Assembly: GCA_025354525.1 (NCBI GenBank)
Contig: JANXMS010000628.1
Location: 1 to 36,740 of the forward strand
Reading direction: 5' to 3'
Source: Acidobacteriota bacterium
Lineage (GTDB): Bacteria; Acidobacteriota; Terriglobia; Bryobacterales; Bryobacteraceae
DNA: 36,740 nucleotides
In this document: one piece after another, positions 29,545-34,259 of the stretch
How positions within the stretch are numbered: the first letter of the stretch is position 1
How the letters are laid out: each line of letters starts with the position of its first letter
Notes under the pieces: model-generated
The model's database searches: none
The model's input: only the letters and a program-made list of their open reading frames with translations
Told to the model about the DNA's origin: nothing
Position numbers and translations under genes: made by a program

Positions 29545-30042
29545 ATGAAGTCGTCTTCACCTACGGAGCCGCGCCGCGGCTTTCTCGTCGCATCCATCAC
29601 CGGCCTGATGGGGATCATCTCCGCTGCGCTCGCCCTGCCCACGGCTGGCTATCTCCTTGGTGGCTCGAAGCATAAGCGTCCCGCCGACTGGGTGGCCGCC
29701 GGCGACATCGCAAAGCTTGAACCAAACGTCCCTGAGCAGATCGTTTTTGAACGGATCCGCCGCGATGGCTGGAAAACGGTGAAGGAAAAAGCCAGCGCCT
29801 GGATGATCAAGACCGGCGAAAAGGAAGTCGTCGCCTACTCGCCGATCTGCACTCATCTGGGTTGCGCCGTCAGTTGGGACGGTGCGGCCAAGAACTTCGC
29901 CTGCCCCTGCCATACCTCCAGCTTTGGCACCGATGGCAAAGTACTCGCCGGTCCCGCGCCCCGCGCCCTCGACCGGTTTGATATCAAGATCGACGGCACG
30001 ACGATTCTTCTAGGCGAAATTCGCCAGTCCGACAAGGCCTAG
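29545..30042 (+). CDS. Rieske 2Fe-2S protein of a cytochrome bc complex
   Basis: A 165-residue protein with a Tat-type start (PRRGFLVASITGLMGIISAALALPTAGYLL) that serves as membrane anchor. The cluster-binding boxes are CTHLGC near 110 and CPCHTSSF near 130, followed by the proline-rich GPAPRALDRFDI loop. It carries electrons from quinol to cytochrome c in the periplasm. The start at ATG 29545 is chosen because it begins the signal; longer frames run into the sulfatase gene. The cytochrome b/c fusion follows after 2 bp, so both are co-expressed. Confidence 0.93.
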   Translation: MKSSSPTEPRRGFLVASITGLMGIISAALALPTAGYLLGGSKHKRPADWVAAGDIAKLEPNVPEQIVFERIRRDGWKTVKEKASAWMIKTGEKEVVAYSPICTHLGCAVSWDGAAKNFACPCHTSSFGTDGKVLAGPAPRALDRFDIKIDGTTILLGEIRQSDKA

Positions 30043-30044
30043 TC

Positions 30045-31622
30045 ATGATCAAATCCGCACGTGCCTGGATGGAAGAGCGCACTGGCCTCGAATCCGGCAT
30101 CCATCACTTTCTGAATGAAGACATCCCCGCTTCCAGCGGTTGGCACCAAGTTTTCGGCAGCATCGCGCTGTTCCTGTTCATGGTGCAGGCGTTCACCGGC
30201 ATCATGCTGGCGATGAACTACGCGTCCACGACGAGCGAGGCTCACAGCAGCCTCCGTTACATCCTCACCGAACTCACTGCCGGGCGGCTTATGCGCGGCC
30301 TCCATCATTGGGGTGCCAGCATGATGATCTGCGTCGTCGTCCTCCACATGTTGCAAGTCTTCCTCTGGGGAGCTTATAAAAAGCCTCGCGAGGCCACGTG
30401 GATGCTCGGCGTCGTTCTTCTGCTTCTGACCCTCGGCTTCGGACTCACCGGTTACCTGCTTCCCTGGGACAATCGGGCCTACTGGGGCACCGTCGTCACC
30501 ACCCAGATCGCCGCCAAAGCTCCCGTGATGGGCCCATACATTCTAGCGCTCCTCGGCAGTCAGGACGGCCAGATCGGAGCGGTCACTTTCGCCCGCTTCT
30601 ACGGCGCCCACGTGCTCATCCTTCCCGCCGTCACGGCGCTGCTCCTCTTCCTCCACGTCTATCTGGTCCGCCTTCATGGCGTCGCCCCGGCCCCGGTGGA
30701 AACCGCTCCGCCCATCAAGTTTTACCCCCGCCAAGTTTTTAAGGACACCGTCGCGATCTTCGCGACCTTCGCCGTTCTGTTCGCGTTGGCCGTAGCGGTT
30801 CGCGTCCCGCTGGGCAAACTCGCCGACCCCACGGATGTCTCCTTCATCCCGCGTCCCGAGTGGTACTTCCTCTTCCTGTTCGAAGTCCTGAAGTATTTCG
30901 AAGGGCCGCTCGAAATCGTCGGCAGCATGGTGCTGCCGGGCATCGCCGTGCTGCTGCTTTTCCTGACGCCGTTTATCGACCGCAGGAAGGCCATTCGCCT
31001 CCGCCAGCGCACCGGAGCCATCGGCGTCCTGCTGCTGGCTGTGATCGGCTGGGGCGGGCTCACCGCGGCCGCGCTTTCTTCTACCCCTCATCGCGACGCC
31101 TGGAAGGGCTTTTCGGCGGAAGAGATGGCGGCCGTCGGCAACTTCCGCCGCGCTGATTGCTGGAAATGCCATGCGTCAAGCCCCGGCGAATCCCGCCCCG
31201 GTCCGAACTTGGCCGACATCGCCGTTCTGCGGGATCGCGACTGGCTCGTGAAGCACTTCAAAGATGCCAGCGGCGAAGCCGGTCGCTCCATGCGCGAGAT
31301 CCAATGGAAGCAACTCGCCAGCTTCCTTCCCAAGTTGGATGACGACAACGTCTCCAGTCTCCACGCCATCCCCCAAAACCTGGTCGCCGGGGCGCTCGTC
31401 TACCAGCAGAACAACTGCGGCGCCTGCCACTTCATCAACGGCGTTGGCATGAAAACCGGCCCCCCGCTGAACGGAGTCGCCAAGCGTTGGGATCGCAAGT
31501 GGATGGAAGAACACTTCGTCGACCCGGAAACTAAATCGCCCGGCACCATCATGCCGGCTTATAAATTCTCCCCTTCCGACATGACTTCGATCCTGGATTA
31601 CATGATGTATCTGACCGATTAA
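30045..31622 (+). CDS. Cytochrome b/diheme cytochrome c fusion protein
   Basis: A 525-residue fusion. Residues 1-215 are a cytochrome b N-terminal domain with haem ligands His87/His101 and His189/His204; the second pair is spaced 15, as in b6-type proteins. Residues of about 225-355 are the b C-terminal helices with PEWYFLFLFEVLKYF near 274. Then comes a periplasmic part with two haem c sites, CWKCH near 377 and CGACH near 464, and a Met ligand in TIMPAYKF near 503. No Cys stands where b6f binds haem ci (sequence there HQVFGSI). It replaces separate b, subunit IV and c1 polypeptides, partnering the Rieske protein encoded 2 bp upstream. The last 20 codons have a diverged copy just downstream (31629-31705). 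Confidence 0.92.
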   Translation: MIKSARAWMEERTGLESGIHHFLNEDIPASSGWHQVFGSIALFLFMVQAFTGIMLAMNYASTTSEAHSSLRYILTELTAGRLMRGLHHWGASMMICVVVLHMLQVFLWGAYKKPREATWMLGVVLLLLTLGFGLTGYLLPWDNRAYWGTVVTTQIAAKAPVMGPYILALLGSQDGQIGAVTFARFYGAHVLILPAVTALLLFLHVYLVRLHGVAPAPVETAPPIKFYPRQVFKDTVAIFATFAVLFALAVAVRVPLGKLADPTDVSFIPRPEWYFLFLFEVLKYFEGPLEIVGSMVLPGIAVLLLFLTPFIDRRKAIRLRQRTGAIGVLLLAVIGWGGLTAAALSSTPHRDAWKGFSAEEMAAVGNFRRADCWKCHASSPGESRPGPNLADIAVLRDRDWLVKHFKDASGEAGRSMREIQWKQLASFLPKLDDDNVSSLHAIPQNLVAGALVYQQNNCGACHFINGVGMKTGPPLNGVAKRWDRKWMEEHFVDPETKSPGTIMPAYKFSPSDMTSILDYMMYLTD

Positions 31623-31628
31623 GTCCAC

Positions 31629-31705
31629 CCGGCGCGTCGGCCAACAATTTCGGCCCGACCGACGCGAACACTCTCAGGGATTATATGATCTATCTCACTG
31701 AATGA
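31629..31705 (+). pseudogene. Diverged copy of the cytochrome b/c C-terminal tail
   Basis: In the plus frame ending TGA 31703-31705 this stretch reads ANNFGPTDANTLRDYMIYLTE-like codons. These align without gaps to AYKFSPSDMTSILDYMMYLTD at the end of the upstream gene, preceded by PPGAS against SPGTIMP. Most differences are substitutions, many at silent sites, so the copy is old. It has no start of its own. Its stop overlaps the ATG of the sigma factor gene (ATGA 31702-31705). It may be a decayed duplication of the tail or the remnant of a deleted second cytochrome gene. Confidence 0.72.
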
Positions 31706-32331
31706 ATGCATCCGAACACGGAGTGAGTGCCATACCCAGAGGAGACCTGACGCCGCATTGCGAATGGAACGCCCTGATCAGCCGGATCGCTGCGGGAGAC
31801 CCTGCCGCGCTTTCTGAACTCCATGCGCAGGCCGGGCGTTACGTGACAACAATTGTGGCCCGGGTCGTCCGCAACCACGCAGAAGCGGAAGAGGTCGTCA
31901 ATGACGTCTTTCAGCAGGTCTGGAAGTTGGCAAAATGTTATGACCCCGTCCGCTGCAACGCCCGTTCCTGGATCGCAATGATGGCTCGAAGCCGTGCTCT
32001 TGATCGGTGGCGGATCATCGCCACCCGAACCCGCGTAATCGAAATCCACGAGCATCTGCCCGAACACCCTTCGGCTCCCGCCAGCAGCCCGGAAAGCCTC
32101 GCGGTCGACAAACAGACCAGTCGTTCCATCCGCGTCTCGCTCGAACAACTTCCCGCTGAGCAGCGCGAAGCGATTCATCTTGCGTTCTTTGAAGGCCTCA
32201 GCCACGCCGATGTCGCCGTCAAGTCCGGCCTCCCGCTCGGGACCGTCAAAACGCGGATACGCCTCGGCCTGCTAAAATTACGCGAGCAGATGCCTGTGCC
32301 CCGTCCTATCTCCCAAGGAGTCGCTGTTTGA
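31702..32331 (+). CDS. ECF RNA polymerase sigma factor
   Basis: A 209-residue sigma-70 family protein of the ECF type. Region 2: HAQAGRYVTTIVARVVRNHAEAEEVVNDVFQQVWKLA and SWIAMMARSRALDRWR at about 40-105. Region 4: SLEQLPAEQREAIHLAFFEGLSHADVAVKSGLPLGTVKTRIRLGLLKLRE at about 145-195, a clear helix-turn-helix. The similarity is closest to SigK/RpoE-like ECF factors with cupin anti-sigma partners. ATG 31702 overlaps the stop of the duplicated cytochrome tail, and the stop overlaps the TTG start of the anti-sigma gene (32328). It probably controls an oxidative or redox stress response. Confidence 0.9.
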   Translation: MNASEHGVSAIPRGDLTPHCEWNALISRIAAGDPAALSELHAQAGRYVTTIVARVVRNHAEAEEVVNDVFQQVWKLAKCYDPVRCNARSWIAMMARSRALDRWRIIATRTRVIEIHEHLPEHPSAPASSPESLAVDKQTSRSIRVSLEQLPAEQREAIHLAFFEGLSHADVAVKSGLPLGTVKTRIRLGLLKLREQMPVPRPISQGVAV

Positions 32332-32831
32332 ACCGAGAGTTGATCGAAGATCAAGCTCTGCGCTACGCAATTGGCGACCTCAGTCCCGAAGAACGCGACG
32401 CCTTTGAATCCCTTCTCGCCGCTTGTGACCCAATCGCCATGGTTGAAGCCAAAACGTTTCTCGATATCGTCGAATCGCTGCTGCCCCCCGCGCCGCTGCC
32501 TTCCGGATTTCGCGTCATCCGCCAATCCCAGAACTCCACCCGCCCCACTCCCTATCCCGGCGTCAGTGTTGAGGTGCTCCACATCGACCGCATTGCCTGC
32601 ACCGTCACCTCAATCTTGACATTCGAGCCGGGGGCGAAGTATCCCTCCCACCGGCACACCGTCGCCGAACAGTGCCTCGTGCTCTCAGGAGACGTCTCGA
32701 CCGCCTCGCTCGAACTCACGACGGGCGATTTTCAGGTTGCCGCCGCCGACTCCATTCACAATTTCATCACCTCCCGGGGCGGATGCCGCCTGCTGATGAT
32801 CTCCGGCATCCACGACGAAATCTTGGCCTAG
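32328..32831 (+). CDS. ChrR-like cupin anti-sigma factor without the zinc ligands
   Basis: A 167-residue protein starting at TTG, supported by AAGGAG 9 nt upstream and the 4-bp overlap with the sigma gene. The N-terminal 45 residues have the anti-sigma layout (LRYAIGDLSPEERDAFESLLAAC). Of the His and Cys zinc ligands of ChrR-type domains only one Cys remains (CDP instead of CxxC, Leu in place of His). Residues of about 80-165 form a cupin with SHRHTVAEQCLVLSGDVS (two His and a Glu as metal ligands) and the later His in DSIHNF. It should bind the ECF factor and release it on a signal read by the cupin metal site. Confidence 0.8.
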   Translation: MNRELIEDQALRYAIGDLSPEERDAFESLLAACDPIAMVEAKTFLDIVESLLPPAPLPSGFRVIRQSQNSTRPTPYPGVSVEVLHIDRIACTVTSILTFEPGAKYPSHRHTVAEQCLVLSGDVSTASLELTTGDFQVAAADSIHNFITSRGGCRLLMISGIHDEILA

Positions 32832-33152: not shown

Positions 33153-34259
33153 CTAGCGAGTGAAAACCGTCGTTTCGGGATGATACCGCTGCAAATCGAA
33201 CCAATAGTCTTTGATCACCGGAACCGCTTTCAGGCATCGCCCGTCCGCCGAACAGCCGCGGAAGTTCCACGTCGACCCCGTCGCGGCGTCCATCAGTTCC
33301 CCGGTCTCCGGCCTTAGATAGAAATCGGAGTCCACCGCGAAGGCCCGTACAGAGCGCCCATCCGGCCCCACCACCAACATTATGCCTTGGTCCATCACCA
33401 GCCCTTCCGCCAGCACCCGGGCTAGCGGATAAGCGCGGCTGGGGCCTCCGTGCGTCAGGCCGAGCATCAGCTCCCGCGGTTGCCGGCCCGTCGCCGTGGT
33501 GTCGACGACGGTGCGCATGCGGCCCACCGCCGTCTCCCAGTCCTTATCTTCGTATTGGCCCGCGCTGGCCGCCACCGGTTTCAACACCGTCCCATCCGGA
33601 TGTTCCTGCCGCCACAGCCCGAAGCTCAACTCGTCACAATGGACGAGCTCCAACTGCCGACCCTTCAGCGGACCCGAAACGGCTAAACCACTGATTTGCT
33701 GCCAAAACGAACCAGTCTCCTCATCCCGCATCAAAAAATTCTGGTTGTTGATGCCGGCCAGATGGAACGTTAAAGGGCGTCCATCCATTTCCCTTTTCCA
33801 CACGAGACCCGTGTGACAGAGCGTTCAATACGTCGCCACCACTGGCGACCCCGCCACCCAGTCGTTGGCGATGTGATGGTACCCCAGCATGCGAATCGGA
33901 TACGCCCGGGACACCGCCCCGAACGTTACCGCCAGCACCATATCGTCCTCGTCAACCTGCGCCTGACTCGCCGGCAGCGTGCCTAACGTGTCGATCGGCC
34001 GAAACATGCGCTCGAAGATGTTCACCTGCGCCGCCGCCGCAAACAGCGTCGTCAACAGCGGCAGGACCACCGCCGCTTTATGGATCCGACTCCAAAAACG
34101 AAGCAGTAGCGCCAAGCTCGCCACCGCGCATGCGATGGCCAATACTGGCCCCCAGGCGCGGACTTCCAAGGCGACCGCCAACTCGGTGGCCCCTTGCGCC
34201 CGAAACGGCCGGATCACGTACATCGGGTACGCCACGCAGCCGAATGCCACCGCCGTCAT
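33153..34259 (-). CDS. DUF3179 membrane protein with in-frame UGA at the conserved Cys (candidate selenoprotein)
   Basis: One gene read through UGA at 33827-33825 gives 368 residues. Residues 1-85 hold three membrane helices (near the start, WGPVLAIACAVASLALLL, VVLPLLTTLFAAAA). The DUF3179 domain follows: AVSRAYPIRMLGYHHIANDWV near 120-140, SPVVATY, then UGA as codon 145, then TLCHTGLVWKREMDGRPLTF, ETGSFWQQISGLAVSGPLKG, and a second conserved part with GGPSRAYPLARV. In DUF3179 proteins this site is TYCxLC, so UGA replaces the first Cys while the second is kept. A hairpin of bSECIS type starts 9 nt after the UGA. The simplest reading is selenocysteine; a nonsense mutation of TGC is the alternative. 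ATG 34259 is chosen over upstream TTG and GTG. It lies 17 bp after the beta-lactamase-fold gene on the same strand. The family's biochemical role is unknown. Confidence 0.75.
33799..33815 (-). promoter_or_regulatory. Candidate bacterial SECIS hairpin
   Basis: On the minus strand CACACG (33815-33810), loop GGTCT (33809-33805), CGTGTG (33804-33799) form a perfect 6-bp stem with a five-base loop. It begins 9 nt and its loop 15 nt after the in-frame UGA. The GGUCU loop equals the apical loop of the E. coli fdhF SECIS, in which G and U contact SelB. The spacing is at the short end of known cases. Confidence 0.62.

Follow-up and report, generated by a model that had tools for sequence, protein, structure and literature searches.

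Two papers (PMC9312934, PMC13188914) include, in their available text, the DUF3179 domain-containing protein (pfam11376, with the motif UxxC/T) among the selenoprotein families; the second credits the family to Zhang and Gladyshev 2007. For the Acidobacteria, the accessible part of PMC1794560 gives four selenoproteins of three families, and that of PMC12013277 an Acidobacteriota genome with three known selenoprotein genes. The terms Acidobacteria and Acidobacteriota are absent from the main text of both PMC9312934 and PMC13188914. In a literature search that left most subscription journals outside, we found no report of an Acidobacteriota clade of DUF3179 selenoproteins, of forms with UPLA or UPLV at the motif, or of the shifted hairpin described below. 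The bacterial SECIS model, as far as it is set out in the available text of PMC13188914, has a loop of 3–9 nt with G in its first two positions, a stem of 4–16 bp, a minimum free energy of at most −7.5 and 16–37 nt between the UGA and the loop.

The gene examined here lies on the minus strand of a 36,740-nt stretch of Acidobacteriota DNA (the window; contig JANXMS010000628.1 of assembly GCA_025354525.1, Bryobacteraceae). A first-pass annotation had proposed it as a selenoprotein of a family not yet described as such. The novelty part of that proposal does not stand: the two papers cited above, as far as their text is available, already count DUF3179 among the selenoprotein families, and the gene is therefore a further member and not a new family. 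The family and the trait are thus known, and the window gene is a well-supported addition from a large Acidobacteriota branch. At a probability of about 0.93, we read gene 34259-33153 as encoding a DUF3179 selenoprotein in which the UGA at 33827-33825 would be decoded as selenocysteine (Sec) by means of SelB and the hairpin. Its features are as follows.

33153..34259, minus strand: predicted DUF3179 selenoprotein gene, from ATG 34259 to TAG 33155-33153 with the UGA read through; start uncertain
34002..34259, minus strand: N-terminal part, modelled as three long helices that probably form a membrane anchor
33582..33908, minus strand: first repeat of the DUF3179 domain, bearing the Sec-x-x-Cys pair
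33825..33827, minus strand: UGA, the predicted selenocysteine codon (residue 145 with ATG 34259 as residue 1)
33799..33815, minus strand: SECIS-like hairpin, 6-bp stem CACACG/CGUGUG with loop GGUCU
33156..33473, minus strand: second DUF3179 repeat, lacking Sec; two of its Cys do not vary across the aligned subfamily

Under the standard genetic code the gene is cut into two open reading frames at the UGA, while the read-through product has 368 residues and this single in-frame UGA. Against the Pfam DUF3179 model (PF11376, gathering cut-off 27) the read-through product scored 174.7 bits and thus belongs to the family. The parts upstream and downstream of the UGA scored 38 and 112.6 bits on their own, so that each side alone exceeds the cut-off and the frame is family-like on both sides, as had been claimed. 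No NCBIfam model matched the protein at E ≤ 1, and the window gene was the only PF11376 match found in its genome. The motif reads SPVVATY-U-TLCHTG, with the UGA on the first Cys of the family C-x-x-C and the second Cys kept. This placement, also taken from the first-pass annotation, is borne out by relatives that have either UGA or Cys at the column, and re-reading of the sequence found the annotated coordinates, motif and hairpin correct. Two alternative starts lie in frame upstream of ATG 34259, TTG 34268 and CTG 34280. In two relatives (L033 and L034) the ATG overlaps the upstream stop (ATGA) where the window reads CTGA, aligned with CTG 34280.

The gene neighbourhood was compared by clustering ORFs of at least 120 aa around 80 loci and the window, keeping the longer of two overlapping ORFs. 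In this rough test no cluster spanned more than 13 loci, and a conserved operon was rejected as a clue to function. A PF00144 gene lies directly upstream in the window, where the clustering took an antisense ORF in its stead; by eye the same neighbour was seen in L033 and L034, and only there. Convergent with the DUF3179 gene are a Rieske domain and a cytochrome b/c gene (29800-31622, plus strand), followed by genes for an ECF sigma factor and for a cupin of the ChrR type (31702-32831, plus strand). The window ORFs at 29800-32831 clustered with at most one other locus.

The window's genome (7.32 Mb, 633 contigs, 97% complete) was searched for selA, selB, selD and tRNA-Sec, a check that the first-pass annotation had proposed, and all four were found. 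The tRNA-Sec scored 74 bits with the anticodon given as tca by ARAGORN, SelB carries SelB-type winged-helix domains, and SelA and SelD are both present. In the proposed mechanism, SelA and SelD would produce Sec-tRNA-Sec, and SelB would bind the hairpin just past the UGA, with its GGUCU loop, and bring Sec-tRNA-Sec to the codon instead of termination. The SelD gene itself (L052; G000:C549:18147-19049, minus strand) has an in-frame UGA in VKAAGUASKL followed by a hairpin, and is therefore a second likely selenoprotein gene of this genome; AAGUASKL is presumably the active site. Across the window's own genome and 60 relatives, a tRNA-Sec match of at least 60 bits was obtained in 52 of 61 genomes, including 13 of the 15 with TGA inside the DUF3179 match; G023 (80% complete) and G012 (58%) have the TGA without such a tRNA-Sec match. 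This co-occurrence alone proves little, because many genomes with tRNA-Sec have no DUF3179 gene.

Named genomes were scanned and yielded 118 confirmed relatives; the following counts use the best 80 of these 118. When the homologues were aligned for UGA/Cys pairs, as had been suggested, the column of the first Cys held UGA in 70 loci and TGC in 10. The titles of 78 of the 80 loci name Acidobacteriota taxa, L083 is labelled simply as a bacterium, and L126, whose DUF3179 is of the Cys type and of the same subfamily, comes from a MAG titled Rhodanobacteraceae, either by transfer or by a binning error. UGA is also found at the column in Bryobacterales bacterium F-183 (L071), whose genome is titled nearly complete. 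Within the matched stretches of the 80 loci, the only stops besides the column UGA occur in L055 (TAG) and, close to the end, in L119 (TAA). L055 shares its contig with L033 in a 58% complete genome, and its TAG, upstream of the UGA, is an error or the mark of a broken copy.

PF11376 matched in 31 of the 61 genomes. Among the 36 places listed, 15 hold an in-frame TGA, all at the first-Cys column; G026 has a TAA elsewhere and G012 a further TAG beside its TGA. In the same 61-genome set, L036 reads C-x-x-R, and L037, a partial match, is without the motif. DUF3179 was present in 133 genomes of a sample of 396 Acidobacteriota genomes, and the 150 matches listed comprise 52 with one TGA, 98 with no stop and none with TAA or TAG. 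Thirty loci were fetched from this sample. The nine marked as TGA (L142, L144, L146, L152, L153, L155, L159, L160, L163) all have the UGA at the column, in motifs U-P-L-C, -A, -T or -V, and four further TGA places that were read (L168 to L171) have it at the same column. Cys versions of like subfamilies read CPLC (L148) or CPLT (L145, L147). In the genome G031 the two forms coexist, Cys in L031 and Sec in L166. In a quick tree of 84 rows (71 Sec, 11 Cys and 2 outgroups), one branch with support 99 parts the Sec from the Cys forms. With one Sec/Cys switch within the subfamily, comparing Sec with Cys loci therefore does not amount to counting independent events. A divergent DUF3179-like gene in two genomes of the same genus (L164 and L165; G007:C24 and G013:C32) has a UGA in TFUVVCNSG followed by a different hairpin, GGAACUA-GUU-UAGUUCC, and represents a second, distant Sec form.

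The hairpin CACACG-GGUCU-CGUGUG was located at 33815-33799, with 9 nt between UGA and stem as claimed, and 15 nt between UGA and loop, so that the loop begins at nt 16. Its GGUCU loop is, we take it, that of the E. coli fdhF SECIS. The fold energy is −11.6 kcal/mol (48 nt), and 29 of 200 shuffles folded as well (z −1.14). Synonymous resampling of the peptide gave six Watson–Crick pairs in 10% of the draws, and the pairs together with a GGUCU loop in 0.9%. Hairpin energy was rejected as sole proof of a SECIS. The first-pass annotation had held that chance would not be expected to place such a hairpin here; this was too strong for one sequence, as the resampling shows, but right for the clade. 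Six Watson–Crick pairs are formed in 65 of the 70 UGA loci, five in three and four in two, against six pairs in none and five pairs in five of the 10 Cys loci. The GGUCU loop is retained in all 70 UGA loci; the loop codon is GGT in 70/70 of them and in 0/10 Cys loci, and GGT makes up 11.5% of the Gly codons elsewhere in these genes. Codons −1 to +9 around the UGA are nearly frozen at synonymous sites, codon +2 varying most, and conserved residues away from the UGA mostly use mixed codons. Conservation across relatives thus argues strongly for a SECIS, for which the single sequence is weak evidence.

The uppermost stem pair is G-C in the window and its nearest relatives, where the common hairpin has C-G; this is a compensatory swap through paired synonymous changes in a Thr and a Leu codon. 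In a pair test on 47 rows, 97.9% of the cells were paired, a level reached in 2 of 500 shuffles, and the covariation score of the hairpin pairs was 0.080 (1 of 500 as high). One pair was changed on both sides, in 2 of 47 rows, a count attained in 72 of 500 shuffles. With the partners slid by +3 the covariation score was 0.081, yet only 44.4% of the cells were then paired. Covariation support for the hairpin is thin. The peptide itself evidently favours pairing, as five of the six pairs occur in half of the Cys loci; a similar hairpin is also predicted for L066, a Cys locus. For the UGA loci L107, L171, L146 and L163, a different structure comes out as the best fold of the 54 nt. L117 and L131, in which four pairs remain, instead have a 7-bp hairpin, CGGGUCU-GGUCU-GGACCCG, five bases further downstream (L117:4457-4501, L131:4454-4498), with a second GGUCU as its loop, 20 nt from the UGA. 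In the tree L131 groups as sister of loci that have the hairpin in its common place, and L117 sits on a long branch. The shifted stretch was found, at up to one mismatch, in none of 399 sampled genomes of the class, and the shifted hairpin is therefore rare. The pattern of UGA plus hairpin occurred in 50 of these 399 genomes and its reversed control in none, and all ten matches that were read carried the DUF3179 motif.

To get an idea of the architecture, the protein was modelled by AlphaFold2 with Cys in place of Sec (mean pLDDT 95.2, pTM 0.90). The model has three long N-terminal helices and a strand-rich domain. The helices are hydrophobic by eye and the product is probably membrane-anchored; the charges, also judged by eye, would place the domain outside the cytoplasm. 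The two halves of the domain match each other (hhalign probability 98.8%, E 1.4e-16), the Sec-x-x-Cys pair being found in the first only, and the domain is by this comparison evidently a tandem duplication. A sequence search of solved structures gave no match at E ≤ 1, and Foldseek gave none against solved folds at E ≤ 0.001.

Other accounts of the UGA have to explain the same observations. A gene broken by a nonsense mutation, with its downstream half decaying, would also show a stop codon, and L055 has its additional TAG upstream of the UGA. The downstream half was examined for such decay in close relatives: dN/dS between the window and L054 is 0.098 for the part before the UGA and 0.087 for the part after it, at a dS near 0.8, and between the window and L055 it is 0.105 and 0.088. 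These low values past the UGA point to purifying selection, and the gene is therefore not decaying. Moreover, the same UGA recurs in 70 of the best 80 of 118 relatives, whose matched stretches hold other stops only in L055 and L119, and the 150 matches listed included 52 with one TGA and none with TAA or TAG, which makes a pseudogene very improbable. A sequencing or assembly error that changed TGC or TGT to TGA might be suspected in an assembly of 633 contigs; it is hardly credible when other assemblies have the same UGA, among them those of the near relatives L054 and L055 and of F-183. UGA readthrough occurs in bacteria, and the inserted residue, be it Trp, Cys or one supplied by near-cognate suppression without selenium, cannot be named from sequence alone. 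Against such decoding stand the residue replaced, which is the first Cys of C-x-x-C, the Sec machinery and the UGA-containing SelD of the genome, and the agreement of loop, stem and energy with the bacterial SECIS model, and we regard it as very unlikely. Decoding as Sec, which the first-pass annotation had put forward as an inference, is strongly supported by the machinery, the Sec/Cys pairs, the conserved hairpin and the downstream purifying selection.

What the Sec would do in the protein is a separate question. In some Sec loci whose motif was read, the second Cys is Thr, Ala or Val. Because it is replaceable in this way, what reacts is probably the Sec itself and not the pair, and we lean slightly towards the Sec acting as a nucleophile in thiol or peroxide chemistry. 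As a redox nucleophile it might enter a selenenylsulfide, either with the Cys at the third position after it or with a different thiol. A rival view of the function, compatible with Sec, is that Sec/Cys and conserved His are ligands for a metal or cofactor on a barrel resembling that of Rieske proteins, without thiol redox chemistry. The Foldseek hits of highest probability are indeed Rieske domains, 3gce (0.90) and 5cxm (0.94), with TM-scores by target length of 0.52 and 0.51 over 79 columns, and all 11 rows of alignment A1 share two adjacent His as well as a His next to the second Cys. However, the E-values of these hits are 0.25-0.26, hits with lower E-values are unrelated, and hhalign against 14 Rieske domains gave probabilities of 0.3 and 5.1%; Rieske homology was thus rejected and the likeness kept as a fold hint only. 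The Rieske cluster ligands C-x-H ... C-x-x-H were not seen by eye in the 11 rows. In addition, L123 has Arg in place of the His next to the second Cys, and the replacement of the second Cys in other subfamilies also speaks against binding of a metal or cofactor, which we consider rather unlikely. A wider picture, which we offer tentatively and hold less likely than not, is as follows. In it, DUF3179 would be among the commoner selenoprotein families of Acidobacteriota, its members being membrane-anchored tandem-repeat Sec proteins outside the cytoplasm that use a Rieske-like barrel for thiol/selenol chemistry, and the SECIS could be moved by a few mostly synonymous changes with GGUCU kept.

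The reading as a DUF3179 selenoprotein corrects the gene calls at this locus, and it suggests that many Acidobacteriota may use the Sec machinery partly for a DUF3179 protein. The aligned hairpins, with one swap and two shifted registers, form a data set on what SelB needs, loop identity or spacing. Compared with the SECIS model in the available text of PMC13188914, the 5-nt loop starting with GG, the stem of 6-7 bp and the −11.6 kcal/mol of the window fit; the 15 nt to the loop are borderline to the 16-37 nt of the model, depending on the counting, and L117 and L131 have 20 nt. The Cys-type DUF3179 proteins of Edaphobacter lichenicola (L074, L076, L078, L080) belong to the same subfamily and have the motif TYCTLCHTG, and the 10 Cys loci have TGC at the column and GGG or GGC, never GGT, as the loop codon. 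With the listed DUF3179 selenoproteins (PMC9312934, PMC13188914), compared by the descriptions in their available text only, the window gene shares the Pfam family and the Sec in first position of U-x-x-C/T. It differs from them in its Acidobacteriota origin, helical N-terminal part, UTLCHTG motif and nearly fixed GGUCU hairpin, and the UPLA and UPLV forms found elsewhere in Acidobacteriota depart from the listed UxxC/T form.
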